Assembly: GCA_019671135.1 (NCBI GenBank)
Contig: JAHRHY010000003.1
Location: forward strand, 1,364,001-1,428,000
Direction: 5' to 3'
DNA length: 64,000 nt
From: Linnemannia hyalina
Lineage: Eukaryota; Mortierellomycota; Mortierellomycetes; Mortierellales; Mortierellaceae
Shown: piece after piece, positions 23,620 to 62,000 of the stretch
Layout: each line of letters starts with the position of its first letter
Position numbering within the stretch: position 1 is the first letter of the stretch
The notes under the pieces: generated by a model
What the model saw: the letters and a program-made list of their open reading frames with translations, nothing else
The model's database searches: none
Told to the model about the DNA's origin: nothing
Position numbers and translations under genes: made by a program

Positions 23620-26600
23620 CTACAAGGACAGCATCGACGGGGACCCGGGTGACCCAACGCCGCTGCCACTACTAGCACCACCAACGCGTGAGAGACTCTT
23701 GTGCCGGCGAAGACTCTGGCTAGGACTCTGATTCCGACTTGGACTCTGACTCTGAACCTTGCTTCTATGACGCATCGTATGCCATTCTGCCCAGTGTCGA
23801 AGTCTGCGCTCCGACTTTCTCGGCGTGTCCATCCCATTTTCTGCAGACGACACCCCAATGGCTTCTAAACAATCACCATGTCAACAATAAGACCTTGTTA
23901 GCTTGATGAGCTTCTGAAAAAGATACTGTAACCTCGCCAAATTCAGTTTCAAAGTGTGAACTTACCAGTTGAGTGGAAACAAACATAGAGGGCCAAAGCT
24001 AAGGTCTTGAAGGGCAATAATGCAAGGAACAAAGCAGCTCCATACAAATTCCTCGCAAACGTTCTCTCCCCACCTCCAAGACAGATCCCAAGCAACGGCT
24101 GCAATGCCACAACCGCCATCATAAAACACAGCGCCAGTATCACTGGCAGCGCGTCAAGAGATCCAACCTTCTCCGCCGCGCCTACAGCGACCATCACCAA
24201 TAACACTATCGAAAAGAAAACCGCCGATGGGAGGATGACCAATGCCAGCCATTCTATCAGGGCCAGGAAATTGAGCGAACAACAGAATCGACCTCGCAAT
24301 TCCGAGATCCAGATCTGGCGCCAAAGAGCGTGGAAGGAGCTTGCCAGCAAACGACCTTGTTCCTGAAGGAAGGATTGCAGATCAGGCGTTACTCTCGAAC
24401 GATAGACCGCTTGAGGGACATAGACGATGCGACGGTCGGGGAAGGTCTGGTGCAACAGGCCTGTCAGGTACCGGTCCTCAGCTCCCTGGAGAAGGAGGCT
24501 CCGCTCATGCAGAGTGCGAGCCTTATTGCCTACAAAGCAGGAGATCACATCAGGGTGGACTAGGATGGGGATCGAGTACTGGACATCCTCGGAAGCCATT
24601 ATCTTCTTGAGCAACCGCTGTCGCTTGATCCGCTTAGTGCTGTCCTGGTGACCCTCTGCTGCTCCTCCGTCGACATTGCCATCAGCTTCACCAAACTCAA
24701 CGTCTCGCCCTTCCTCCCCTTTCACCTCAGCCAGGATCTTGTCATCATCGTCTGTGTCGGAAAAGGCGGACGTTTCATCTGAGTTGCGTTTGTCAAGCTT
24801 GACAGGGCCTGGATAATGAGACCCTTGGTGGCACCGGAGCTTGATCCGCACCAGCGAGAAGCGACTTGGCAGACATTGGACAGCACTCAAGGTGGACTCA
24901 AAAGCACTAGTGAACTGAGACGACAAGTGGTTCTCATAGTCCTGCACTCTCGCCAACCAGTTCTCGGTGGCGTTGGAGATGACTCGCTGAGCACAGACAC
25001 CCATGACTTTCTCGTTTCTCCTCAGGGTACCAACCATTCGACTCAGGCTGTGGCGGTCACACTCGATCCCAGCCTCTGCCACAAGCAGCATGTCAAAGAC
25101 GTCCGGTCCGCTCCCACCACCCATCAACCACCGCACTCGCTCAAACAACGCATACTCAAAGGACGACATAGGTTCGTTGAAGCAGACGCGATAGAGCCAT
25201 CTCAATATCAACTTCTTTTTCCACCAGGTCGCATACTCCTCTTGAACTAGGTCTTGGTCTGGGGCGCGGAGGACAAGGACATAGGGGATCCGACGGGAAT
25301 CAACCACATAGTAGCCAGAGTAGATATCCTCTGAGAATGGATCGTTTGAGAGCGACGACAGGGGCAGTTTTTCCGACTCGATGGGCGTCGATGGTTGCAT
25401 TAGACGCAGGCAGGCTAGTGACGCCTGAGAACGCTTCCCGTCAGCACCCCAGGTAGCGTCTGCCATGACCAAGAGAAGCTTGCGGCCGTCGTCGTGGTCG
25501 GCCAAGGCGAGGGAATCCAGCGTGCTCCTGATTTGGTCATCTTGATCCGTGGCCTGACAGGTCACCAGCATGAGGACGTGATTCTCGGTATCAATACTGT
25601 CGCCGCTGTCAGCGCTGTTGTTGTTCTTGTTGCTGGTGGCTCCAGTAGTCGAGCCAGAAGATCCTTTGCCAGACTCTGTCCTGGTGGACTGCGAAAAGAC
25701 AAACCAGTAGACCAATGCAGAGCCCAGACGCATGAAGGTGATCAAAAAGAGAATCGCCAGCGAAAACGTGTTGATGACAAGCGATGCCAAGCATCCACCG
25801 GCTGGTTCGCCAGAAAGCACGCCGACCTTGAAGAAGCCTTGGAAGCAGCGAGCAATGTCCTTGTAGTTGGCTTGTTTCCGGACAGCGAGTGTTGCATCCC
25901 GGCCGATGAGGCTCTTGATCCAGTACATCCGAGAGATCTCAAGCGCGCTTATTGTGGGACCGGGTACCTGAGCCAAGTAGTCGGTAGCATCAAATACTGA
26001 TCCATCATAGACAAATAGATTCCGTGACGTCGAATCTGCAATGTCGGTCCAGTGGTATGTGATCACCACATCGCTCCTCTCGAACTGGCGCAGCATGCCG
26101 TTGGAAGACGGGGCGAACGAGTGGCAGTGGTTGACCGCTGTGCTGTTGACTGAGCATTTTCCAAAGTTGGTGATTGATCCAAAAAGGTGACAGGTGTCTG
26201 ACAGATCCGGAGGTGGGAACAATACTGACATATCATCTCCATAGTGTGCGGTTAAGTACGAGTTGATTGCTGCAGATGTTGCGCCTCCTGATGCTGGTGA
26301 CGGATGAGATCCCTGTGCAAAGAACGAATCCACATCATAAACAACGCCTCGTATTGTCGCCAAACGACTGGGATTCTCAGAATTGCTTCCGTACCGCGTG
26401 GCAAATTCCGATGTCGAGAGAACTTCCCTCGAGTGCGGCCTACACGTCAAAAGGGCCAATCCAAACGCGAGGAATCCAAAGAGGATAGTGAGACCAGTGA
26501 TCAGAGAGGAAAGGGTGACTTTCTCGCGCCAATCTTGCTGCCTATCCGCGCTCCAGGACTTTGATAACACCTTTGCCGGACAACATGCCGTCCATAGGTT

Positions 26601-29058
26601 GGAGAGGGTAACCCAGATGTGGTTGCGGTTGCGCTCGATCAGTTGCATATGCTCTCGTATCCGCCGATTGATGTCGCTCTCCATGTCCTTCTCTTTAGCT
26701 CGTTCCGCGAGACTGTTGCTGGATCTCTTCTGAAGTCGCACGCGTCGCTGATGATAGTTGGAGCCAGACCGATTGATGATGGGATCAGTGTTTTCGAGGC
26801 TGCTCTCGGTGTAGTAACGGACGTGCTTGGTGCCATATCGTGGAATGAGGCCTCTCCTGTGCATGCTGTAGATCCGTGCTGTTGTTGACGCCCGCCATGG
26901 TATCCGTGGTCGAGATTTCTCGGAAATAGCGGGCTCTTTGACTGCCAGTGATGTAGGGGTTGGTTCCTCGACGTGATCGTGCTGGTCCTGGATGTTGGAT
27001 GGTGCTGCTGCTTCGTCAGCCGGGCTAGCCTCAAGTATAGAATTGGGCAGGTTGTCCTTGGGCTCAATGAAAATGGCAGAGAGATCTTGTCCGATCGTAG
27101 GGAGAGGTGGTAGCGAAGGTGCAGTATCGGACGGCTGGAGTGGAACAGGTACTGCTGGAAGAGACTGGTGACGACGGGCTTTGAGTGGTGCGCTCAATCG
27201 CGAAGAGAGTCCAGAGTGACGAGAAATGGTGCTGTTGTATCCCGAGAACGAACGTCGTGGCCTGTAGTGATCCTCCTCCTGTGCTTCCTCTGGCACAGAT
27301 GGTAATGAAGGTGCTGGTGAATGTGTCCTCCGAGACGGTGATCGAGGTGTTGGTGGCAACATTTGCTGGATTAACGTCCGTGTACTCATACTCGACCCTG
27401 GTCCGGATGTGGTCGACATAATAGAGCTCGCGCCTCCGCCACTGCTGCCTTCTCGTGAGATACGCCTTGTGATATAGACAGCAATCGACTTGTGGCCAGC
27501 ATCCCACGAGAGACTACGCGCGTTCTTCCCGTTGGCCGTCTTGATATGAGGATCGGCTCCTTGGGTGAGTAGCAGCTTGCATGCGTCCAGCTTGCCGGCA
27601 TAGGCTGCAAGCATCAAGGAAGACCAGCCGTATTGATCCAAAATGTTCAATGAGGCGCCCTGCTCGATAAGTAGGGCCATGACATCGATATGCCCAGCGT
27701 AGGAGGCGAGGAGGAGTGCAGATTTTCGAGTGTTGTCTTGCTGGTTGACATTGGCGTGTCCGATGGAGATGAGCAGTCGACATATCGTCAAGAACCCATT
27801 GTAAGAAGCGATGATCAGGGGCGTGATCGCTTCCTAATTGGATATTCATACAAGATAACGGGGAAGAGAGAGGGTAAGCGGGAGAGACAGGGAGAGACAA
27901 GGAGGAACAGAGAGAGAATGTGTGCAGGGGAGCAGGGGACAGGGAGGGGTGGGAAAGAACGGGAAGGGTGCATGAACGTGCGAAAGGGGCAGAGGCAACG
28001 AGGAAGGGATGAGAGACAATAAAAAACAGACTAAAATGGGTGACCAGATCATGGGAATAACAAAACGTACGCCCTTGGTGCATGGGTGCATGAGGGGGGA
28101 GAAGAGAGAGAGAAGGAGCCAGAGGAATCGAAGTGCTGAAATGCACGAATGTCGAGAGGGAGGGAGTCGAAAAAGGCCACACGAAGAAACGTGTATTTCA
28201 TTTCCGCATACTCAATTGATTCTGGCCTGAGATGAGCTGATCCTCCTTACCTCGTTGCCTAGGCTTGCCGATGCACCTGCCAACAGGAGAAGCTGCGCGC
28301 ACTCGGTTGAGCCAGCCGCAGCGGCTTGGTAGAGGGCTGTCTCGCCCTCGTCATCTGCGCATGTGCCGACAGTAGACGTTTGAAAACAAAAAAAAGTGTC
28401 ATTAATAGTCGTCAGAGAAGGTAGAAATGAGAGGGTGAGAGAGCAAAAAAAGGAGAAAGGGGGAAAGGTAGTGTTATTAGGGGACAAAAGTCGAGTCATT
28501 CGGTACATGGACGTAAACAAATGCTTATGTTGTTGTTCTAGTTTCGACAATGGTTCCATTTATGGGCGAAGTGCTTCCCTCTCTCTTGATTTGCCTGTCT
28601 GTCCGTCTGTCTACTCTGGGGAAAGAAACCAAGTCCAAAGCCAAGTCTAAGTCCAAGTCCAGTTCTAGTCAGGTTACTAGTGTAGGGTGGAGAAGGATCG
28701 TTGTGTGTTTATAAATACCTTGGAGGTCGACGTCGATCGAGGGTAGTGCCAAAAGGTATCGTAGAACACGATGTTTATTGTCCGTTGCAGCGACCATCAG
28801 CATCGTTTTGTGCTCCTTGTTGCGGATCCTGTTGGGATCGAGTGAGAGGCTGGAGAGGACATGATCGAGGTGCTCGGTGTCCTGGACGAGAACAGCGTGA
28901 AACAAGGAGCGGATCACACCCGCAACCGAGTAGCGCCGAGTTGAGGAGGTTGGGGTGATGGTGTTGTTGGTGGTGGTCGATGAGGTTTCGTGATACGAAG
29001 AGTCGTCCGGATCAGACCCGGCAGAGAAGCCCCGTCCATGGAAACCACCCGTCTCCAT
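23620..29058 (-). CDS. Ankyrin-repeat / chitin-synthase-like fusion, catalytic motifs lost
   Basis: Four exons (29058-28719, 28354-28251, 27833-23966, 23864-23620) join in phase to 1518 residues. Residues about 45-260 form ankyrin repeats (for example GETALYQAAAAGSTECAQLL, SALLLASYAGHIDVMALLIE). A basic disordered linker follows, then the chitin synthase layout: DWREKVTL plus TM near 579, a cytochrome-b5-like segment (GVVYDVDSFF), more TMs, a GT2-type domain, and C-terminal TMs. GAEDRYL (about 1266) and TFPDRRIVYVPQAV are kept. The family DADT nucleotide/metal motif is replaced by VAEAGI (about 1060), the QRRRW motif by QGRLL (about 1305), and CLPGCFCMYR by CLPSRFSLVR. It is therefore probably a membrane pseudoenzyme, perhaps a scaffold or regulator of active synthases; that role is inference. 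The tail is Ser/Arg-rich. Strand and family match the partial synthase at 1-1607. Confidence 0.9.
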
Positions 29059-47295: not shown

Positions 47296-49896
47296 TGGAT
47301 CAGGAGATCGAGGCTCAGGCAAAAGAGTTTATTGCTTTCCTAGAGCAATGCAGGCAACAGCCGTAAGTGTTCTTGCTCCACCGTCAGCTCCCCATCTCAT
47401 TCGAACACGCGTTTGCCAACCTGCTGTTTCAAGGACAAACCTGCGTCACCATGTTTCTAGCTAACCTAAGGATACCTCTATTGTTCTCTTGCAAATCTAG
47501 TCGCGCAAAGGCAACCTCAGAACTCAACGCGAGTCTCAATCACCTACACACGTTCCTGACGACCATCCAACCCCTTATTGAGCCCTGGCCCATCACAAAT
47601 GACCCAACCATCGATTCCATGACCGTCCACGCCTCGGAACTCTATCCGACTCTGGGCGTACTTCTGGAGATGCTTTGCAGGAACCCTGTTGTCATCGCCT
47701 CTGTGTCTTCGAGAGGACTTGCAGATGTGGTGGCTCAATCGGTTATCAAGTTTTCGGCCAGGACTGGTGGCAATCCTGCTGTCGGTGCAGGATCGAAAGG
47801 CGCAATGACAGTTTCTCCTTCTGTGGAGCAGTCGTGGCGAGCTGCACGGATGCGTGATATGTTTCGAGCGCAACAACAACAGCAGGACGGATTGGGCAAG
47901 AGGAAGAGGAATTGCGCGGGTGGATCTAGTAATCGACACCTTCCCCATTCTGAACAGAATGGGTCGATAGAGACGAAGAGTGATCCATTTCAGGATATGT
48001 TCAAGGTTTCGGACAAGGAGTTGAAGGAGAGGGAGATAGAACAGACTTTGGAGACCATGGCCGGCAACCTGAAGATCTTACAGGATCATGTTGCGAAAAC
48101 AGAGTTGACAGAGACCGCGTGGTCTTCACTGGTACGTACTTCTATACTTCTATCAAAAGCATGTGGAAAGTGCAACGACAACTTCAATGATTGTTTTTTA
48201 TGTCGCTGAAAGATGTATTGCTTTTGTTCATAGGTAACATGGAACCGGCAGCTGTCAGAGCTGTGTGTACCTTTGGTATCGACACCAAGTGCAACAGAGC
48301 TCTTAGAAGACATTATCAGGACTGCATACGTACTCTATTCCAAACGTCCGCAGGGTGCCTCAGGACTTGTGCTGCTGTGTCTCGTAAACTCGTCGTTCAT
48401 CGAGTCATTGATGATGCACCAGAGCGATGCTACTGTCTTTGCTGTGCTCAAGGACCGCCAAACACTTGCCCAGTATGTTACACGTCCAATTTCTATTCGT
48501 ACGATGTGCTCGTTTCGATGGCTCACCGTGTTTGGTTATTTGCGGATGACTAAAGCGCGCCTGTTCAATTAAATAGACTGTTGGTGATTTCTCCATTGGC
48601 ACGGCAAAGCTGCCTCGTGCAGTTCATCGACGGCGTCGTTCAGGACTGTGCTCATTCTCTGAATATCTATCAGAGTCGGCACCAGATCATACAGCGACAC
48701 TTTGAATCATCTCAGCTCTTGACATCCGCTCTCTCAGGACAACTTCCGAAGAGTCAGCACCGCCAATTGGTTGAGAAGATCCTGGAGGACTCTGCCGAGG
48801 TGGCGGGTGAAATTGATGATTGGCGGATTGTGCGGATTTGGGTATTGTTGATCGAGTGGATCTTGACGCGTCTTGGATCTGGAGAGTCTATGCACACTTT
48901 GCCTTTGGAATTTGACGCGTCGTTTTTGGATCAAGGTGCGAATCTTTGCGCCGTGATATCATCCGCATGCCGCATTGTCAACTGTTGCGATTCGGAACTT
49001 AAAGGGGCACCCAGTTCTCACGTTTCTGTCAATACTGCGGCAGTGTCTGAGATCGACGCTCTTTTGAAAATTCAGGATCGCTATGTCTTTGAGACTGCTC
49101 CACCACAAGAAATGGCTCTACGACGGAGGATGGTGTTCTTGATTGGATCTGCGGTCGCTTCAAGCAAAGGACTCTTGACATCCTTGATTCTTCAGCATAT
49201 CCTCTCTTTGGATAATGCCGATCTGCACCTCAAACAGGAACCCTCAGCTCCGTCTCAAGACACAACAACCCTACTGAACTTGCTCTCGCTACTGATATAT
49301 GGAGAATTGAGCAGCGCAAGCTCCCCAACTATTGGCCAACCATTCCTGGCACTACTGCGAGAGCTGCATGCAACCCTTCGCGTGTCAGAAATCAGCAACC
49401 CATACGACCTTCGCCTGGGAACTGTTGCAGACCTGGAAGGGATCTTCTCCAGGTGTGCGTCTTTCCTTCGACTCAACACTGTCGTCACTGCAGACATTGT
49501 CTGTGCGATCGTCATCTATAACGATCCCAATAATTACGCCTTTTGGCAGTCCGTGGTATGTACATGTATTTTTTTCCTCCTTGTTTGCACGCTCTCGTTC
49601 CTGGAAGAACCAATGACCCTTATTTACCGACTCGTTCTTTTTGTTGTACTCCTCTTTAGATTAGCACGATACTTCGGATACTCACAGGTTCAGAGTCGAC
49701 TTCAATGCTGACATCCTTGCCGGCGTTCATGGCTCGATTGCGGGACCTTTCAGAAATCATGGCAATACCTGGTCTTGCAAGAGCACTTGATACCCTTTTG
49801 GTAAAACCAGCTATGACAACAACAGCAATGACAGCAGCATCGGTATCATCTGCTGGCGTTGTCGCCGTGGACATTCTTGCTTTTTCGCAAAACTAA
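47296..49896 (+). CDS. Unrecognised large helical protein
   Basis: I do not recognise the family. The likely start is MDQEIEAQAKEFIAFLEQCR at 47296, a short exon ending at a GTAAGT donor (47363). The next acceptor is uncertain: AATCTAG before 47502 keeps the frame, but the skipped segment LPISFEHAFANLLFQ also looks coding-like. Later joins are clean: after WSSL at about 48132, at CTTGCCCA/ACTG (about 48473/48578), and VWQSV to ISTILRILTGSE (about 49555/49660). The product, near 800 residues, is almost wholly alpha-helical and Leu-rich with no TM. It has a Gln/basic patch (RAQQQQQDGLGKRKRN), hinting at a nuclear HEAT/ARM-like scaffold. A Mediator-tail-type subunit is conceivable but not shown. 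No stop or frameshift interrupts it. It ends 232 bp before the transposon ORF. Confidence 0.6.
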
Positions 49897-50127
49897 ATTA
49901 CGTCCAAAAAAACATAACAATATCACGTGCTTCAGTTTAGGGAGGTTTGGGTCTACAATAATAGTCCAAATGTACGTTGGCAGTCGTGCTTTTGAATGAA
50001 AATTACATTGTGCCGTGACTATTGTATATCGCAGTCCGGCTACTACTAAACTGCGTCACAAAGCGCGACCCACAAACCCTTCCATCAACCACGCACCTCT
50101 TCCATCAACCACACACCTCTTCAGTCA

Positions 50128-51416
50128 TGTCACAAGCAACATCAGACCTTCATCGCAAGCGTCAGCGGTCTCCAAGAAGCAATCGCGCACGCGACATCGA
50201 TCAACTTCACCCTGCTGTTGAAGAGCTTATCGCGCAGGCGGACACCAATATTGAAGACACAGATGAGAGGGACTCTGACAGCAACAACGACGATGAGACA
50301 AAGGACGAGGAGGTTGAAGATGACGTTGGTAACAGGAGAGAGACTGCAAGGGAGGGAACGAGCGACGGGACAGTTCGTCGTACACCGCAGCCTCGAGCAA
50401 CTACATTCAACGGTTTCAAGGACCCTGCTCATGAGCTTTTGCTACTAAAGGCTTTGGATGCGGTCAGGCCGTTCGGTATCCAACACGGACAAACACGAGC
50501 TGCTTGGTCGAGAGTTGTTCAGTATCTGAAGGATTATGATGACAAGGAACGAGCCGAAGGTCGCCCAACAGTGTTCGACGACGTCAATCCCTGTGTATGT
50601 CAAGCCAGATGGAAAAACTTGTCGAGCGAATATGCTGAGCACGAGGCCGCTATGCTGAGAGCTACTGGAGTCAATCCACAGATAGCCGACCGACTGAAGT
50701 ACATGCAGCCCGTGTACGAGTTTGAACAGGCCTGCAGGAAGACAGCCGATGATAACAAGGACAAAAGACATCGCAAGAAGGCGCGGACAGAGAGTAACCG
50801 AGTGGAAGGTCTTCTTTTGTTGGAAAGGTCTCGAACAGGCCCTGTTCGAGTAGTACCAGACCTGCTTCAGCCCATACAAGGCTCTATGTCAGGGACGGAG
50901 TCTGAGTCCAGTGTCTCCGTTATCTCCAATCATACCCCAAGGACTCCCGGGATGAGAAAACGGGCCATGACAACACTGTTGACACGGCAGCTTCAGGAAG
51001 CGAGCGCATTTTTAACGACCCAGGCCGAAAACCAGTGTAGGCAACTGGACATGATGATCGAGGATCGGGAGGAGCGAAGGAAGATGGAGGAAGAGCGAAG
51101 GAAGGTGGAGGAAGAGCGAAGGAAGACGGAGGAGGACACTAGGCGGGAACAGGCCGCAGTACAGGAGAGACAGCAGAAGGCGCTCATGGACTTGATGGCA
51201 TTGCAAACGGAGAGCATGGAGCGAATCGCCACCCAACAATCAAAAACCACGAAGGAGCAGGCGGCAAGCACGGAGCGCCTTATCCTCGCAATTATGGCGG
51301 GATTCAATAAAAAAAGATTGATTTATTCCAACACTTGTTCCATGATAGCTGGATGGATGTACTCTCGCAGTGTAGGAGGATCAATACCAAACTGCTCATT
51401 TATCTTAACACCATAG
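50128..51416 (+). CDS. Harbinger Myb/SANT-like DNA-binding protein
   Basis: Second gene of PIF/Harbinger elements; with the transposase it recognises the element ends and aids nuclear import. After an acidic/Ser-rich N-terminus comes the Myb-like block (LLKALDAVRPFG, RAAWSRVVQYLKDYDD, VCQARWKNLSSEYAEHEA), with the conserved Trp residues of a trihelix fold. A basic patch (DKRHRKKARTE) follows. The C-terminal 130 residues are a charged coiled coil with 7-residue RRKxEEE repeats (51060-51140). The start at 50128 (MSQATSDLHRKRQRS) is chosen; an in-frame ATG-like start at 50022 gives a poor hydrophobic leader. A short tandem repeat (CTTCCATCAACCAC x2) lies at 50080-50115 just upstream. Single exon. 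Confidence 0.8.
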
Positions 51417-52456
51417 TAACAAGTGTGAATATTGGTTAACAAAATAGCAAAGCGATAATGGGATTCAATACAAGTGAACAATAAGCGGTGACTCTTAGGA
51501 AAGTCAATGCCTGAGAAATATCTAGTTACCTCCCCGAATGCCCACTCTATAACGATGCGAAGACCCGACATCGTCTGATTGAACGTCTTTGCCTCCGGGG
51601 TGAGGTTCGCGCCTGTGTAGCCAACGATCATGTGCGGGTCGGGCATATAAGCGGAATACCCGTAAAGAGCAAGGGGCCGGCCAGTTGTATCAAAAGCGTG
51701 CTGCTCCAAGATGTCCATGATGCCAGATTGCTGATATATAGTGATGTCGTGAGTGGTGCCGGTGTATGCCTTGCTGAGATGCAGAATGATGCCGTCTGGA
51801 CCAACGACGCTCTGATACTTCAGAGCATGTACATGCTTGTGTCCGTTGTACATTGACGCTTGACTGACTGTTGGTCGATTGATCCTGCGTACGGTGCCAT
51901 CGATGAATCCGAATACCGCGTTGCACTCATGGTTGCTCTGCTCATAGCACAGCTCAGCATACTCTTCAAGCTTGGATGGTGTCAATCGATGATGATCCCA
52001 GATTAACAGCTGGCTCCAACGTAGCATGATCCACTTAACAAGATGATTGATGAGACGGGAAATGGCGCCAGTACTCCTGCGGAATATGGCCTCCATCCTG
52101 TTAAGCCGGGCCGGGTAGGACAAACGGTATACGGCCATGCAAAGTACCGTAAGCGAATCAACGTTGTCCCTGTCGCGGCTTTTGATCCTTGGGGGAACCT
52201 GTAGGACCTCAAGGATCTCCTCCAGTTGGGCACAAGTGAACCGAAATTCTTGTACGCAGTACTCGTCGGAATATTGGCGTACGTCAAATGAGGCATCAAG
52301 CAGAAACGGGCGGTGTAGAACTGGATTCTCGTCCTCGTCGTCCTGGTCGAACTCGTTGTCGTCAAGGCCGTAGAGCATAGCGAGTTGTGCCGCGATTACC
52401 GGCACGAGAAGGACGGCCATCTTGAATGAATGAAGAGCGATGGTCTGTAACAGCAT
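51323..52456 (-). CDS. Harbinger DDE transposase, second catalytic Asp replaced
   Basis: 377-residue DDE endonuclease-type transposase. The N-terminal helical part (VDSLTVLCMAVYRLSYPARLN, FRRSTGAISRLINHLV) is the usual helix-turn-helix-like region. The catalytic fold gives FGFIDGTVRRINRP (D186), then KYQSVVGPDGIILHL and GTTHDITIYQQSG, and LRIVIEWAFGEV (E304). At the second acidic site the family reads GDxAY, but here it is GYSAY (Y267, codon TAT; GAT would need one base change). The frame is otherwise uninterrupted with one exon. Loss of D2 should abolish cleavage, so this copy is probably a recent, non-autonomous relic. The start may be 52456 or the internal Met (MAVLLVPVIAAQ). Its promoter faces the Fanzor-like gene at 177 bp. 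Confidence 0.88.
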   Translation of the reverse strand: MLLQTIALHSFKMAVLLVPVIAAQLAMLYGLDDNEFDQDDEDENPVLHRPFLLDASFDVRQYSDEYCVQEFRFTCAQLEEILEVLQVPPRIKSRDRDNVDSLTVLCMAVYRLSYPARLNRMEAIFRRSTGAISRLINHLVKWIMLRWSQLLIWDHHRLTPSKLEEYAELCYEQSNHECNAVFGFIDGTVRRINRPTVSQASMYNGHKHVHALKYQSVVGPDGIILHLSKAYTGTTHDITIYQQSGIMDILEQHAFDTTGRPLALYGYSAYMPDPHMIVGYTGANLTPEAKTFNQTMSGLRIVIEWAFGEVTRYFSGIDFPKSHRLLFTCIESHYRFAILLTNIHTCYYGVKINEQFGIDPPTLREYIHPAIMEQVLE

Positions 52457-52633
52457 TCAAGGAAGACATGGCATAAAGCAAATGCGAGCCACCCTTCTTC
52501 CTGCAAAAAGCTCTATAAATTAAACTTTTTTTTTAAAGGATTGGTTGACCTTTTTCCTTCTGCCACACACAATTAACTCATTGCCAAACCTTTTTAATCC
52601 TCTTCAAACATTGTACACAGTCTCTAAAATCCC
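52457..52633. promoter_or_regulatory. 177-bp head-to-head spacer, transposase / Fanzor-like gene
   Basis: Divergent start codons at 52456 (-) and 52634 (+) leave 177 bp. It contains an AT-rich core (TATAAATTAAAC then a T9 run, 52511-52535) able to serve as a TATA region in either direction. Shared control is inference. Confidence 0.5.
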
Positions 52634-55600
52634 ATGGACATGACAACTCTGGTAATGTCTTATTTTTCTTTCATGTCTATAACAGCTATGTCTGCTACCT
52701 GGACTGGAGGCGCCACTGACATGTTTGTCTTGTTTTGTTATTACAGACCGAATTACTCTACATTTCGCACGACCAAGAATGGCTGGCAAGGGCACCTGCT
52801 CTAATGGACGACACGTCGCATCAGTATCAACTGTATGAAGCGTTTCACGCTCTCAAGGACACGGAGTTCACCGGAGATGTGACCGACGTGAAGGCTCGAC
52901 TTCTAGATAAATTGTTGGCTATTGAGACTCTATCTGATAGAAACGCGACGAGCGCACAACTTCAACAAACATCACCTCTGACAGCCTTCCCCCACTATGT
53001 AGCGGAAACCTTGCTGAACGCTGGAATCCGGATGCAGGGTGGTCGGAATCAAAGCGGGATTCTTCCCGGTTTTGCGCTAAACATCAAGGGTCCAAATGAG
53101 CATCACTCACACCAAGATGTCGACCCCGACCCTCCACCGTCCACCGTGTTGTCTTTGCGTCTTGACCACCGTGGCCCTCTTTTGTTTGAGTTCCTGGCGA
53201 GGCATTTCAACTGTATCATCTACGAGTTCACCTCGGTTGGAACAGTGGATCGATTCGCCCCTGGAGACGACAAGACGCCTTGCTTCTCGATGGGGTTTTT
53301 GAGGGCGTGTGATGGCATTGGAACGCCCGTGGAGTACTTTGTCCTGGGCCCTGCTCGTCATGCAGAACCCCGTCCTTCCTCTACGCCTTCTCCTCCTGCG
53401 CCTTTTTACGATCCCCAACACCCACACCCCGCCATCCTTCGTCATGGGAAACGCGCGAGGAAAGGAGCCAAACGGGATCGGGAGCTGACAGAGTTTGACG
53501 ATAGTGCGGCGATTGAGCTGTATGCCTCTGCTTGGTAAGTTATTGCTCTTTTATCCAAAAGAAAGCAACGCCACTCAATAGAAACGCCATGGATAAAGAC
53601 TGCAGACCTCTAATCAATTTTTTTCTTTCAATCTGTTTATAGTCGTCACCGGTTGGACAACTTTATTCTTGCTGAGGCCGACAAAATTCGGAAAATGTCG
53701 CCCAAGTCCAATCCCAAGAACAGAAACGCCATTATGCAGGACCTCAAAGCACGTCTGATGACAAAACCTCACACCCCCGACGGAGTCTTCATGGAGTACA
53801 TGGAGTTGATGCAAAAGGAGCTCAACAACACCGAAATCACCCGCAGGATGGCTGAAGGCAAACTCGGAAAAGGACCGGTGAGGATTTGGCGACGAGTAGT
53901 GAGCGATGACATGGAGGTCCAGTGGAAGGAGACAGTCGATGGAGTAGTTCAAGGGTCCGACTACCAACCCAAGGGCAAGAAGGCCATGGGATCTGCTGCA
54001 AGGAACAACGTCGCAAGCAGTGAGAGCAAGGCCATGACGCCCCTGGTTGGATCGTCATCAACAACAACTCCAAGGCCTTCAGGGGATATGGTGGACAAGG
54101 CAAGTGTGGATATGGACAAGGACATGGATGTCGACGATGGAGGAGAGAGCAACTTCGTGGATCTTGGCAGCAAGTCCGATGCTGATGAGGATGATGCAGG
54201 CCCTAGTAATGGGTACCAGTCGTTCACCATGACGCTTCTACAGTCTCTGAGGCCCGATTTACACGAACAGCACGACGAGATTGCAGAAATACTGGAAGCA
54301 AAGCAGGATATTGCATCTGATTTCGCATCAGATGTTACCCTTCTCGGAAGGAAGGTGGTCTTGGAGGTACTAGCTTTGTTGTGTTGCTTTGAATGCATAC
54401 ATGCATGCATGCATTTCCAGCTGGCAACGATACACAAGGAAGGAAGAGATCGTTTTTACTAATATGTGGTTGTTGTTTTCATATCGTAATTAGGCCGGAT
54501 TGCAGTTCAAGGGTAGGACTGATGACGGCTTTCTTTTGAGCCAGATATTCCCGGCCGGCTTTCAGTCTCGTCTGCCCAATGTCGATCTCGATACTGTACG
54601 GGTGCCCGTAGCAGCCCTGGATCCGGAGCTCGAGAGATTGATCGAGACCAAGGACGATACACCTCGAGGCAAGGATGTCCGCAGTATTTTATCTTCAGTA
54701 GCGCTGTCGTTTTTGTCTGTAAGGCATCTTGGCGTCCACGCAGACGAGGACAACACCTCAGGAAACAGAAGCACCTCCTCACCAGTCGACCACACCTTTT
54801 GGCAGGACCTCTCTGACAGCATACGCGCCTCGTCACCATCAGCACCTTCACCAAATATCGATACAAACAGCCACCCTCTTACCAACTTTTCAAAGACCAC
54901 CAGGGCCATGCTTAACGACATCTCGTCTAATTTTACCAACATCTGGGATGGTCCCTTATTCGACAAAATATTTCACACATTCTGCAACATTATTTTACGA
55001 CTACATCTCACACCGACAAAGGAGGAGGAGTGTAGAAAACGTGAGGCTCGGCAAAAGCAGGAGCGGGACGCCAAGAAGGAGGAGTCGACTATGAAGACCT
55101 CCAAGAGTCGAAAGTGCTGGTGGAAACGTCTGCGAAGCCTACAGTCAGATTTGGCCCATTGTCTCCGTCAACCGGGATCAGACAAGAAGGCAGTCAGACT
55201 GAACACCATCACCAATGCGTTGCGAGGACTGGCGGGGTCAGAGCCTGAGATTCTTCAACTTCAGTTGCCAGGCCTGGAGGAACAGTTGGAGGCTATGGGA
55301 AGGACTTCTGCTACGACACCAGTGGGCGATTCTCTGATTGACGCGCTATGCAGCAGAGTTGAAGCAGAAGATCAACTTTGCAACTTTCTACTGCAAGAAG
55401 AGCAGGGTGCCGTTGAAGGTGAGTTTTTGAAGGAGATGTTTAATGCTCTATTTTCGACATGATCATTTCTATTTACTATAGCAACAACTAACAATTGTTC
55501 TTGTTTCACGTCTACGATTTTTTTAGATCGGGCAAGAGATGAGTTGAAACATGCCTCAAAACCAGTGGATGAGCGGGTGCTACGGATGGGTAAGTGCTTT

Positions 55601-58524
55601 ATATGAAAAGTAAATGATCCTAGGTGAAAGGATAAGGCGTGTTAATACATTCGCTTATTATTTATTTGATTGCTTAGCCATGGAAACACCCCCCAATAGG
55701 ATGGAAGCGCTCCTAGCCGTCTTTAAGATGCTTCTGCAGTCACCGTCGATCCATCGCAAGGTCCTCTCATCCTATGTTCGACGATGCTGTAAGGGGGTGG
55801 ACCCGACAGAAGAGGAGTGTGCTACTATCGCGACTCTAGTGGAACTCCTCCGGCCATACATACCAAAGAGACGATTGCCGGAGTCTGCGTCGCGCTCCCA
55901 AGAAGAAGAGTTGCCTCAGGGATACACATTCAAAGCCCTGCCACACGTCGTTACCATGGCTCCCTTCATCATCCTCGCCGACGCCACACTCCACATTTCC
56001 GGTTATTCATCCCTCACTCGCCGCTTCACTCCCGACGTGTCACCATCAACAAGCTACTCACTGCCCCTAACCGGTACCAGCCTATTCGAGACACTCTTCA
56101 GTTCACAACCACGACAATTCGATGCCAACGACAATAGCAACAACACTATATCCACCTTTCCGACAAAGCAGCAGAAGCCGAGGTTATTCTTTTCCGTCTT
56201 CAATCGATTGGCCATCGAATCCGCGTGCTACAAGAGAAAACTACAGTTTGCCTATCGGTAAGATAACTCGATTTTATTGTAATAATGATGTTCGATGAAA
56301 TGAAGCATGAAGTAACTATTTTATCTAACCCTTTTCTGTTCAAATGCGTATTTTTAAACGTAGGATTGTGTTTGTTGACAGATGGCGCATCAGAGTTATG
56401 GGACACCCGCTACCTCGTCAGGACGGCCTACGACAAGGCTACCCAGTCACCAGCAGCTTCGACATAAACAGGAAAAACAAGACACCGTCTCCGTCCACAA
56501 TTGATTGGAAGTCCGAGGTCCACCGTATGAACGCTGATGACGCATTGGCTCAGGCGGAGCTAGATCAAGGCCTTCGGGAACTGGAATTGGCTGAGAAGAA
56601 GCTGAATGGTCTGCGCCTCAACTTGGAACTCTTGGAAGAGGACAAAAAAGACGCTGCGAGGCGTCGGAGGAAATTGGGTCGATTGCGTCGTCGAGGTGAT
56701 ACATCGGACGAGACCTTGCAGAGTTTGAGCGTGGCTCGGGCGGAATTCTCAACTCGTTTGGACAAGTACCAGGCTCACATCAAACCTGTGCAGGACGCCC
56801 AACGTCAGGTCAAGGAACTACGACAGCGAGTCTACTACTGGACGAAACTGCAGTACTACACAACGCCCGAAAAGCCCGACCGTACAACGGACAGCACATC
56901 CAGCAGCTCTGGAGTTCATTCGCAGCCAACATGGACAAGGCCCGTGTGTGAAAATCACACTGAGCGCATTGATTTGTCGGGGCTGGTTTCTCGCGGTAGA
57001 CATCACGTTACTTTTGGAGCAACAGACCCAGGAATGGCCAAGATGCTGCAGACGGTGGGAATTTCGGTCAGGGATATGTCGCGCCGCTTAAACATCTACA
57101 ATATGCTACAAGGTAACACACGGTATTATGTTGGTGATCAAACGTATCTCCAGAACGGTATGAAGCTGCCTATTATTATTTAGGATACTAAATGATTTTT
57201 TCTGCTCAAAAACAAATAGACCTTGCAGACACACAGGACACGGAAAGGACTTTACTCCTCCAACACGAGCTGGCGCAGGAGCTGCAGGAGCCAGTAGCCG
57301 TTCCCCCTGTGATTACTACTACAGCACCTCAAATCAATCATCTCGCACAGTCAACACAGACTGCCAAAAAGCGACAACGCCGCATAACCCAGGATATAAC
57401 TGCCGCATACAACACTCTCAGCAACAATTCAGTGCAGCATATCTACACACCCCAGGACCTGAATAACGCCCATGCAGCCAAGTCGGCAACACGGTCCCTG
57501 CTGCGCGACTTTGAACGAACTAAGGCGAATTCAAAGGACAGGAGAACCACAGAACTGCTGACCAAGAAGGCGTATGCTGCTTTGGCAGCCAAAGAGCGCC
57601 GTTTCATTCAGTCATGTGGTAAGAACAAGGCTCTTTATAGCACTGAATTTATTATCTTTGGAAATTTTCTTATGCTGCCTTTCGACGATTTCACTTTACT
57701 TAGATACTGCGCCAGGGTTAACGACGGAGAAGGCGAAAAGGCAGGACTCGTCGACCACCACTACTCCTCCCTTGTTGGTTGATCTGACAACGGCACCTGC
57801 ATCGAGCCAAGTTCCTATACTTTTGCCAACGGAATCTGGATCATCAAATGTTACACTATCGACAACACCAGCAACCAACCAGCTCTCCCCGCCGCTTGAA
57901 ATCGACGATGGCTTTTGCGAATGTGGCATGTATCACATTTCGAACCATACCTATGGATCATACCGTCATGGGTCGCATTGTCCCCGTCGCTATCCCAAGG
58001 CTCTGCCGGTGATATTTTATGGAGGAGCCGGTACTGGCGTCGGCTCTACCATCAAGGGCTTTTCAAGGAGAGGAGGAGGAAAGACGCGTGAGCAACACAG
58101 ACGCTACTGTATCGTGGGCATAACCAACGAGAATTTGACGTCTAAACTCTGCTGTGTCTGCCTGGAGCCTGTACGCCTTGCCTCTGCCCGAAGGATCATC
58201 GGAGGACAGATCCGCACAGTTCGAATCAATGGAAGCGTTATCTGCCAGAACGCCGTGTGCCCACTTGTTTATCAACAAAAGGCGTCATCCAACCGGGATA
58301 GAAACGCAGCCACCTGTATCGGACTCTCGGGACTTTCAACATTGCTCTCTACAGACAATCAGCCGCTGCCTCCTTTTCGGCTGCGAACCCGACCTTCTCG
58401 ACCATCAACCCTGCATGCAGCACACACCAACCCCAACAGCACCAGTGCAACTGGAATCAACAATCAATCCGGCAATGTGGCTATGATCCGCACCCTGTTG
58501 GATCTCTATGTACATAGAGAATAG
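52634..58524 (+). CDS. Giant Fanzor/TnpB-like RuvC nuclease, 1682 aa
   Basis: Nine exons (52634-52651, 52747-53534, 53643-54366, 54494-55418, 55527-55589, 55678-56257, 56382-57112, 57220-57618, 57704-58524) all join in phase to one 1682-residue protein. Fanzors are eukaryotic TnpB relatives; those studied are RNA-guided DNA endonucleases. The RuvC core here: VTFGATDPGMAKM carries D1248 (RuvC-I); IFYGGAGTGVGSTIKGF, then CIVGITNENLTSKLCCVC carries E1552; C1559/C1562 and C1590/C1595 form the zinc finger; SSNRDRNAATCI carries D1608 (RuvC-III). All three acidic residues and all four Cys are kept. A long coiled coil (about 1060-1180) precedes the nuclease. The first 1,000 residues are polar, with acidic, Ser/Thr-rich linkers, and match no family I know. 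No signal peptide or TM. Outside the C-terminal third, function is open. A guide RNA, expected near the 3' end, was not identified. Confidence 0.82.
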
Positions 58525-59085
58525 TGGGTAAGTTTTCCATCGATCATCCAATTATTGATATCCTTTCGGCATTGATTGCATTTGTGGAGGTTAAAACTGT
58601 TGACTAACTCAATTTTCACCTGCCTAATCTATTTTGATTGCGAAAGATGTCTATTTCACAATAAACAGCAACATAACATCCCTTGGTATATCCCATATTT
58701 GTTCGCTGCATGGTTGATTCAAACACAGAGAGACCAGAGAACGAGTCTATTTCGTTGAAGTGGTCTGAGTTCTCTCCGAAAGGTCTGAGTGTGAGTAACA
58801 TGTGGCTTGGTCACTGTCTCTTCACTTTTTTCCTTTCCCCTGTCTGCCGCTGCTCGTTCTGTTCCATTCCTCTCCTCTCCACTCCACTTCACCCTCTCCT
58901 CTCCACTCATTGTTCCACCTTGTCCATCTGCACCCCATCCTCCTCTGCATACCACGCCCCTCCACAAACGACAATAATACAACCGTCGTCCACCACCAAA
59001 ACTACGACACGCTCAATGGTCAACCCCATGCTCTAGTCATAAACACAACTACAACTTTTACACCTTTCATATTTTCGCGCGCACC
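58525..59085. other. Intergenic after the Fanzor-like gene; OGDH promoter
   Basis: A GTAAGT donor sequence starts at 58528, four bases after the Fanzor-like stop, so a 3'-UTR intron is possible. The region to about 58790 is AT-rich and is where an element end or guide-RNA gene would be expected; none is recognised. From 58810 the plus strand is C/T-rich, the OGDH leader. Confidence 0.5.
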
Positions 59086-62000
59086 ATGCCTTTCTCATCT
59101 TTCGCCCGTGCGGCCGCCACACCCTTGGCGCGCCAGTCCGCCCTCTTGATGCGCTCCTCCTTGGCTCGCACCACTGCCCCCGTCGCCACCTTGATGTCTA
59201 TCCGCAAGGCTTCTTCCACTGCTTCCAAGAACGATATCCCTGCCGCCAAGGATGCCTTCCTTCAGGGCAACTCGGCCAGCTATGTCGAGGAGATGTTCTC
59301 TGCCTGGCTCAAGGACCCTACCTCTGTCCACCTCTCGTGGCAAATCTACTTCAGGAACCAGTCAAACGGCATGTCCTCCTCCCAGTCCTTCCAAGCTCCT
59401 CCAACAATTCCCACGAGTGGTGGTGTGCCTTCGTTGGTCCCTGGCTCTCAGGTCGGATCCTCCGATGTCATTGACCACTTGAAAATCCAGCTTCTTGTTC
59501 GCGCTTACCAGGTTCGCGGTCATCATGTTGCTCGTCTGGACCCTCTTGGAATCAACGAAGCTGATTTGGATTCGGCTATCCCTCGCGAGTTGGAGTTGAA
59601 CCACTACGGCTTCACCGAAAAGGATCTCGACCGCACCTTCTCCCTCGGACCCGGTATTCTCCCCGGCTTCCTCGATACTGGCAGCAAGCAGACACTTCGT
59701 GAGATCGTTAACCACCTCAAGAGCATTTACTGTAAGTTTTGGTCTTGCTTCCTGTTCGTCCTTTGTTGGGATTCTCACCTCAATGTATTTCGCCAGCCAT
59801 TACGCTAGAGCTCACTTCAATCATGAGGTCATCCTTCAAGTCGTGTCGTGTTTATTTTCACACGGATCTTTTTTTTTTTCGTCCGATACTGACACTTCCC
59901 CATCCCTGTGTACCCTCTTCACTTCCCGCTACTACCTCTTAGGTGGCTCCATCGGTGTCGAGTACATCCACATCCCCGATAGGGATCGCTGCGACTGGAT
60001 CCGTCAACGTGTCGAGGTCCCCAAACCTTACCAGTACACCACCGAGGAGAAGACCATGATCCTCGATCGCATGATCTGGTCCGACTCCTTTGAGCGTTTC
60101 GTCTCCTCAAAGTACCCCAGCGAGAAGCGCTTCGGTCTCGAGGGAGGTGAGAGTTTGATTCCTGGAATGAAGGCCTTGGTAAGTCTCGGAGATGGGAGGT
60201 GGCACCGCGCAATTGAACGGCAGCGGCTGAGGATTATCCGTGTGTCTGTTCCATGGGCTAAGACTAACGACCAAATTTTCCCGATGCTCAACACGCACAA
60301 ATAGATTGATCGTTCTGTTGAGCACGGAGTAGAGTCTATCGTCATGGGCATGCCCCATCGTGGTCGCCTTAACGTCCTCTCTAACGTCGTCCGCAAGCCC
60401 CATGAGTCCATCTTCTCCGAGTTCAGTGGAAATTCTGCTCAGGATGGCTTCTCGGGAGATGTCAAGTACCACTTGGGAATGAACTACGAGCGCCCTACCC
60501 CCTCAGGCAAACCCGTTCACTTGTCTTTGGTCGCCAACCCCTCGCATTTGGAGGCTGCTGACGGTGTCGTTCTCGGAAAGACCCACGCCATCCAGCACTA
60601 CATGGATGACAAGACGAGAACCCGCTCACTCGCCGTTCTCTTGCACGGAGATGCCGCCTTTGCCGGACAGGGAGTCGTCTACGAGACTCTCGGATTCATG
60701 GACTTGCCCGCCTACTCGACTGGAGGAACTGTCCACATTGTCGTCAACAACCAGATCGGTTTCACCACCGACCCCCGCTTCGCCCGCTCGACCGCCTACT
60801 GTACCGATATTGCAAAGTCGATCAACGCCCCCATCTTCCACGTCAACGCCGATGATGTCGAGGCTGTCAACTATGTCCACCAGTTGGCTGCTGACTGGCG
60901 CAAGGAGTTCCACACCGATGTTGTTATCGATCTTGTCTGCTACAGACGTCACGGACACAACGAGACCGATCAGCCCAGCTTCACTCAGCCCATCATGTAC
61001 AAGGCCATTGAAAAGCAGGTCCCTGCTCTGGAAAAATACATCGAGCAGCTGGTCAAGGAGGGTACCTTCAAGACCGAGGAGATCAACGACATGAAGAAGC
61101 GCGTCTGGGACATTTTGGAGGAGAACTACGCCAAGAGCAAGGACTACAAGCCCAAGTCCAAGGAGTGGATGACCAGTTCATGGCACGGATTCAAGTCGCC
61201 CGCTGAGCTCGCCTCTGAGATTTTGCCCACCTTCCCCACTGGTGCTGCTGTCGAGACCTTGAAGCACATTGGAGACACGATCTCGTCGACTCCCCCCGGC
61301 TTCAAGATCCACTCCAACTTGGCCCGTATCATGAAGGCTCGCGCCAAGACCATCGAGACTGGCTCCAACATTGACTGGGCCACTGCTGAGGGTCTTGCCT
61401 TTGGTACTTTGCTCTCTGAGGGCAAGCACGTCCGTTTGGCCGGTCAGGATGTTGAGCGTGGTACTTTCTCCCATCGTCACGCCGTTCTCCACGACCAGGA
61501 GACTGATAAGTTATACGTCCCCCTTAAGAACTTGGGTCACGGCCAGGCCGCCTTCTCTGTCAACAACTCATCCCTCTCTGAGTTTGGTGCTCTTGGGTTC
61601 GAGCTCGGATACTCCCTCGTCAACCCCAGCTCTCTCGTCCTCTGGGAGGCCCAGTTCGGTGATTTCGCCAACAACGCCCAGTGCATTATTGATCAGTTTA
61701 TTGTTTCGGGAGAGACCAAGTGGCTTCAGCGCACTGGCTTGACCATGTTGTTGCCCCACGGTTACGATGGTCAGGGACCTGAGCACTCTTCTGCCCGTAT
61801 TGAGCGCTACCTCCAGATGTGCGATGACCACCCCGACATCTTCCCCTCGCCCGAAAAGATGTCGCGCCAACACCAGGACTGCAACATGCAGCTTGTTTAC
61901 TGCACTACGCCCGCCAACTACTTCCATGCCCTCCGTCGCCAGATCCACCGCGACTACCGCAAGCCCTTGATTGCCTTCAACTCCAAGTTGTTGCTTCGTC

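Follow-up and report, generated by a model that had tools for sequence, protein, structure and literature searches.

Analysis of a 64,000-nucleotide stretch of the Linnemannia hyalina genome (the window; C23:1364001-1428000 in a genome of 51.5 Mb and 50 contigs) identified, at positions 52634-58524, a giant intron-containing gene whose product ends in a core bearing the catalytic motif of the Fanzor nucleases. The gene adjoins a Harbinger-type transposase within a repeated unit. The product is probably a divergent TnpB/Fanzor superfamily protein of giant size with a conserved, unexplained N-terminal part, its gene being cargo of a Harbinger-type DNA transposon. The Fanzors known so far are compact, with a REC/WED/RuvC plan that can be recognised (mostly 600-700 residues in the available text of PMC11423790, up to about 800 in that of PMC10711439); the intact, recently dispersed relative described here is about twice as long or more. 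If this reading is right, such a nuclease core would be able to act with a recognition part of another type. Most of the length of the protein resembles nothing known, which makes it a promising kind of putative genome cutter. A single fungal genome contains three near-identical copies of this gene and eight equal-scoring ones of another family, alongside decayed ones, so that the reason why such nucleases are borne by transposons can be tested directly.

Gene structure and intact copies

The model joins nine exons on the forward strand in one frame, giving a coding sequence of 5067 nt and a product of 1688 residues. Exon 1 (52634-52651) supplies the start codon, and exons 2 (52747-53534), 3 (53643-54366) and 4 (54494-55418) encode residues 7-269, 269-510 and 511-819. 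Then come a 63-nt micro-exon 5 (55527-55589, residues 819-840), with a 95% match in the copy on C2, and exon 6 (55678-56257, residues 840-1033). Exon 7 (56364-57112, residues 1033-1283) encodes a coiled coil followed by D1254 in a TDPG motif (RuvC-I), and exon 8 (57220-57618, residues 1283-1416) the segment between RuvC-I and the core. Exon 9 (57704-58524, residues 1416-1688) contributes a low-complexity and Cys-rich insert, E1558, a TS pair, a CxxC/CxxxxC zinc finger, the RD aspartate at 1614 and the stop codon. Exons 1, 3, 4 and 6 rest on the model together with the copies described below, exons 4 and 6 on more divergent relatives as well; exon 2 is 37-41% identical in one such relative (PAR, see below), and the exon 8-9 join is spanned by a sequence from another species (P0001).

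All introns run from GT to AG and measure 85-127 nt. In exons longer than 200 nt the frame of the model is the sole stop-free frame, bar the stop that ends exon 9. Codon bias in this frame is weak, and that of the adjacent transposase is similar. Introns 1-6 (six of eight) have a YTRAY branch-site-like word 31-39 nt upstream of the acceptor, a range picked after inspection, against a background of 6.5% of 1559 YAG on the same strand; the word is absent from the only host intron checked, which belongs to the 2-oxoglutarate dehydrogenase gene.

The strongest backing for the exon joins, confirming the nine-exon gene as real, comes from two further intact copies, at C4:1086827-1092601 and C2:895161-900920. 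They were recovered in a genome search with the giant protein that scored 28 of 140 candidates, so that the copy counts from it are lower bounds. The three genes have equal exon lengths, the same splice positions, a single terminal stop and no gap in any of the nine exons, length changes being confined to introns 4, 5, 7 and 8. The initial annotation had proposed nine exons in one frame free of internal stops, which these copies bear out; it gave a length of 1682 residues, and its residue numbers are six too low. In the three-way alignment the window copy is 98.2% identical to either of the others. The giant gene is under purifying selection: ratios of nonsynonymous to synonymous substitution rates (dN/dS, Nei-Gojobori) are 0.284, 0.324 and 0.289 for the three pairs, the excess of synonymous changes being significant in each (binomial p of 1.6e-7, 1.4e-7 and 8.5e-10), and none of the four segments examined separately reaches a ratio of 1 (0.16-0.53).

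Four decayed loci (one each on C15 and C20, two on C39) contain stops and have lost exons 5-7 for the most part and exon 9 almost entirely. As these copies (L022 on C15, L023 and L024 at the two ends of C39, L020 on C20) sit about 5-9 kb from contig ends, their position suggests subtelomeric duplication.

Divergent relatives and the Fanzor-type core

More distant relatives were found in the same genome. The best preserved, PAR (C23:2900374-2906128), can be aligned piecewise to most of residues 7-1688 with 34-47% identity, residues 281-510 being at 32%; stops coincide with the introns, and exon 2 contains one frame change. PAR shares 90-92% identity with P0001, from Mortierella sp. GBA39. The copy at C1:711721-715264 is decayed and more distant, and matches residues 547-1036 and 1310-1668. 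Used as query, P0001 matched 61 stretches of the genome; by our count the C-terminal core is matched at 27 places at E<=1e-8, and eight of these 27 have equal score and identity. One of the eight, a 7.2 kb locus (L058, C23:1300801-1308000), aligns by tblastn to residues 453-783, 846-1201 and 1484-1646 in order (21, 23 and 40% identity), its earlier exons and helical exon being placed by order and alignment only. These eight places, on C1, C2, C7, C12, C16, C23 and C49, represent a second giant Fanzor-like family, near none of which did the Harbinger search find a match. Since PAR and the multi-copy relative keep the residue order, the long layout is old and conserved, PAR being its best demonstration.

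Searches farther afield yielded little: there was no match to the locus in plasmid DNA, none in homologue searches with the whole protein or a longer core, and none among genome contigs. Viral contigs contained a single Fanzor1 (L001), used here as reference, and two further pattern matches in them were dismissed as chance. This viral Fanzor1 has no match in the host genome, which is uninformative by itself.

The initial annotation had recognised a D/E/D triad and a CxxC/CxxxxC finger of Fanzor type in the C-terminal core. Both are present, at D1254, E1558 and D1614 and at cysteines 1565, 1568, 1596 and 1601, with T1561 and S1562 in between. The signature E..TS..C..C...C..C...RD appeared in none of 20,000 shuffles of the giant protein; it occurs in the model and in both P0001 and P0002, and four Fanzor1s have a looser version of it. 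The Fanzor1 motif given in the available text of PMC3627910 reads D-X(125,275)-[TS][TS]-XX-C4 finger-X(5,50)-RD, and that of PMC10711439 places DPG at RuvC-I and an alternative glutamate six positions ahead of the first CxxC. The assignment of the first aspartate is suggested by this motif and by its conservation as TDPG in the window, FDPG in PAR and DDPG in the C1 copy. The C-terminal quarter would be a RuvC-type nuclease in the Fanzor arrangement, with the aspartate of DPG, a glutamate six residues ahead of a four-cysteine finger and the aspartate of RD.

Similarity to Fanzor1 emerges at the level of family profiles, single sequences being too divergent. Against a profile of four Fanzor1 sequences P0001 scores 7.5 bits. 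With hhalign, a profile of three sequences gave at most 1.6%, the three genome members alone 41.3%, and an alignment (A5) of the three sequences, PAR and the C1 copy, its rows not chosen by motif, 74.6% (E 2.7e-5, score 47.5, against a maximum of 23.5 in 200 column shuffles). A nine-row alignment (A6), with four rows chosen by the motif E..TS..C..C and five not, gave 92.5% (E 5e-7, score 60.0; maximum of 60 shuffles 17.9). Searched against 177,635 PDB sequences, A6 returned eight at E<=10, of which SpuFz1 and PpFz1 rank first and second (E 0.065 and 0.067) and Cas12f fifth and sixth (E 0.7). The sole Pfam family matched by more than one A6 member is Cas12f1-like_TNB (PF07282), weakly in six of nine (best E 0.018); P0001 alone reaches 10.1 bits against a cut-off of 26.3. 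These profile matches strengthen the earlier suggestion of a Fanzor-type pattern in the core. The glutamate, TS, the four cysteines and RD are kept in all nine A6 rows, as is the spacing from E1558 to C1565, which is that of the Fanzor-type glutamate six residues ahead of CxxC; four of these rows were picked by motif, which favours A6 and in part guarantees the invariance of E..TS..C..C. Row selection made no use of the other cysteines, CxN or RD.

Several results weigh against this reading. Taken alone, the window protein matches no Pfam family at E<=1 and no PDB Fanzor, scores -3.4 bits against the Fanzor1 profile and gives 0.7% by hhalign; of eight Fanzor1 blocks, RD alone reaches p<0.05 in it (0.018). 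The REC, WED and RuvC-I blocks of Fanzor1 were not found in it with position-specific scoring matrices (PSSMs), and profiles of residues 7-815 and 841-1262 (from 3 and 4 sequences only) gave at most 0.1% against Fanzor1. Its 306 residues from D to TS exceed the published 125-275, all motif elements being in order. A PDB search with A5 returned no Fanzor at E<=10, and in that with A6 the Fanzor matches lie above E 0.05, GtFz1 is absent from the list, and a Kazal inhibitor and CD2, both unrelated, rank third and fourth (E 0.5). An AlphaFold2 model of P0001, which does not include RuvC-I, was uninformative, with a predicted local distance difference test score (pLDDT) of 39.5. Finally, the eight-copy relative reads, by eye, DRG in place of DPG.

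Some of these points would fit a zinc ribbon and acidic motif belonging to another RNase H-like or transposase family, the likeness to Fanzor being convergent: alignable homology is limited to about 75 profile columns, no Pfam or PDB match passes a strict threshold, and structure prediction failed. We give this a slim chance, since the order and spacing E-6-CxxC...CxNxxC...RD are like those of three solved Fanzor1s, Fanzor1 provides the best PDB matches with Cas12f among the eight listed, and column shuffles score far below the observed value. Somewhat less remote, though still unlikely in our judgement, is a TnpB/Fanzor descendant that no longer cuts DNA, its zinc finger and RuvC remnants binding DNA or RNA, for instance as a transposition co-factor. 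The RuvC-I region unrecognised by Fanzor blocks, the DRG of the eight-copy lineage and an N-terminus making up most of the protein would suit such a loss, which is countered by the retention of the glutamate, TS, the four cysteines and RD in nine of nine A6 rows, five of them not motif-picked, and of DPG in the window, PAR and the C1 copy.

Compared with SpuFz1, PpFz1 and GtFz1, the giant protein shares DPG, the glutamate six residues before the finger, TS, the C4 finger with CxNxxC and RD, together with residence in diverse eukaryotic DNA transposons and, like PpFz1, an insertion inside its putative RuvC part. It differs in its 1688 residues, in having no detectable REC/WED, in the length ahead of the nuclease and in being seen only by family profiles. 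With TnpB and Cas12f it would have in common a putative TNB zinc ribbon (OrfB_Zn_ribbon) and the RuvC-III aspartate; it is set apart from them by its Fanzor-type glutamate position, a length several times greater, its eukaryotic host and its introns. The long low-complexity insert of exon 9 has no counterpart in the four other A5 rows. A Cys/His-bearing insert ahead of the catalytic glutamate is common to the window, PAR, P0001, multi-copy and C8 rows. The latter sits in the RuvC part like the cyclophilin-binding FRI insertion of PpFz1 described in the available text of PMC11423790, a likeness of position. One of the nine A6 members (L057) matches Kazal_2 weakly (E 0.0097), presumably in the Cys-rich insert carried by the C8 relative, which may be a zinc knuckle or a disulfide-bonded insertion into the nuclease. 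None of the open-licence PMC papers pairs Mortierella with Fanzor or with TnpB; two name both Fanzor and Harbinger, and none of 20 listed among 848 papers on fungal groups mentions Fanzor.

The N-terminal part

The DPG aspartate has number 1254 in the giant protein and 401 in the stretch of viral Fanzor1 used for comparison, which places about 850 more residues before the nuclease; the "about 1,000 extra residues" of the initial annotation are roughly right. That this part is of unknown kind, and that a coiled coil precedes the nuclease, are both upheld, by profiles of residues 7-815 and 841-1262 that match no Fanzor part and by weak coiled-coil profile matches in exon 7. Three candidate assignments were discarded: a Fanzor WED at residues 930-1046, aligned by eye and unsupported by PSSM or profile comparison; an OTU-like domain in exon 2, dropped for lack of a Pfam match; and a RAD21 PDB match of the N-terminal profile (E 0.0047), which involves a charged helical stretch and is not relied on.

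The model could in principle have fused two genes, an ordinary-size Fanzor-like gene starting at an ATG in exon 6 (about 847 residues) and an unrelated upstream gene comprising exons 1-5. An in-frame ATG in good context does open exon 6, and from it the aspartate would fall at about 413, near the 401 of the viral Fanzor1 stretch. We nevertheless hold this very improbable: order, frame, splice positions and the 63-nt exon 5 are identical in three copies, residues before 816 occur in order with the core in PAR, the C1 copy and the multi-copy relative, and the splice and branch signals of introns 4 and 5 are good.

In the single-gene, Fanzor-superfamily reading, the N-terminal part of about 1250 residues, with its coiled coil just before the nuclease, may serve recognition, assembly or regulation. 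A bolder proposal, which we advance tentatively and regard as somewhat doubtful, is that these proteins form a further eukaryotic lineage of TnpB-derived nucleases beside Fanzor1 and Fanzor2, with a small RuvC/zinc-finger core and a large recognition lobe of unrelated origin, present in several element families of one fungal lineage and guided by an undescribed RNA or protein partner.

The mobile unit

The giant gene, a Harbinger transposase and a partner open reading frame form a repeated unit of about 8.7 kb present in three copies. By blastn, window positions 49972-58654 match the C4 locus at 97.7% and 50002-58654 match the C2 locus in two main pieces (95.7% and 97.7%), the stretch common to all three thus being 50002-58654. 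The right end is sharp, at 58654, the same base in the three copies, with unrelated sequence beyond. The left end is less clear, for the window and C4 copies extend to 49972 and share a further 34-bp match at 49869-49901 that overlaps the 3' end of an upstream host-like gene. The 34 bp also occur at the left border of the C4 copy, so that the 3' end of the host-like gene may come from the element. No further flank match at E <1e-3 was found in the few kb compared on either side of the three copies.

The transposase (51323-52456, reverse strand, 377 residues) matches Pfam DDE_Tnp_4 (PF13359, E 3.5e-24), the family of Harbinger-type DDE transposases. It is intact in the window and C2 copies, and out of frame near the C-terminus in C4. 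The partner frame upstream of it (50127-51416, forward strand, open from 50019 with an ATG at 50127) has no significant Pfam family; Harbinger elements are expected to carry a Myb/SANT-like partner. A transposase fragment accompanies the giant gene in four of four decayed loci, so the association is not recent. Harbinger fragments of the same family occur without the giant gene in 10-kb stretches on C49 and C15.

Two features of the unit weigh against the main reading. Constraint on the transposase is weaker (dN/dS 0.635 on 13 changes, window-C2 comparison only), and no convincing terminal inverted repeat (TIR) or target-site duplication (TSD), including a 3-bp one, was found around the Harbinger and giant genes: the best end-to-end inverted matches score 19-20, and among 3000 random 60-mers the 99th percentile is 19 and the maximum 24. 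A close precedent is MCi-5 of Mucor circinelloides, which, in the available text of PMC3627910, pairs a Fanzor1 with a Harbinger transposase, likewise in an early-diverging fungus and with no clear TIR; it differs from the present unit in a putative 6-bp TSD (ATTTAT) and a two-exon transposase, whereas here the transposase is one open frame, the search for a TSD found none, and the Fanzor-like protein is giant.

Since all three copies sit in a repeated unit with a Harbinger transposase, the window locus is mobile and not host-domesticated, contrary to one possibility raised by the initial annotation. In favour of domestication one could cite purifying selection and the setting of PAR, which lies between genes that look, by eye, like host genes, with no Harbinger match close by, and is related to a sequence from a second species; PAR, however, carries the exon 2 frame change, and three near-identical dispersed copies next to a transposase refute domestication for the window locus provided that they are not assembly artefacts. 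We give it almost no credence.

As cargo of a Harbinger-type transposon, the protein might bind an RNA from the 3' end of the element, by analogy with TnpB and Fanzor. So guided, it might cut matching DNA, for instance sites vacated by the element, and such cutting would help the element persist, as TnpB does. RNA guidance and cleavage are both suggested here by analogy. The candidate region for a guide RNA would be the 3' flank of the gene as far as the unit's right end (58525-58654, forward strand). Counting against the main reading, 58440-58740 has no unusual folding (z 0.16), and an Rfam search over 49800-59200 gave only a sub-threshold match, outside this flank.

Around the stop codon of the giant gene two short motifs were noted, a perfect 16-bp palindrome just ahead of it (58504-58519, CTCTATGTACATAGAG) and a donor-like word, GTAAGT, after it (58528-58533). 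Elsewhere in the window, on the reverse strand at 23949-27833, a single open frame of 1294 residues combines ankyrin repeats with cytochrome b5-like and chitin synthase domains.

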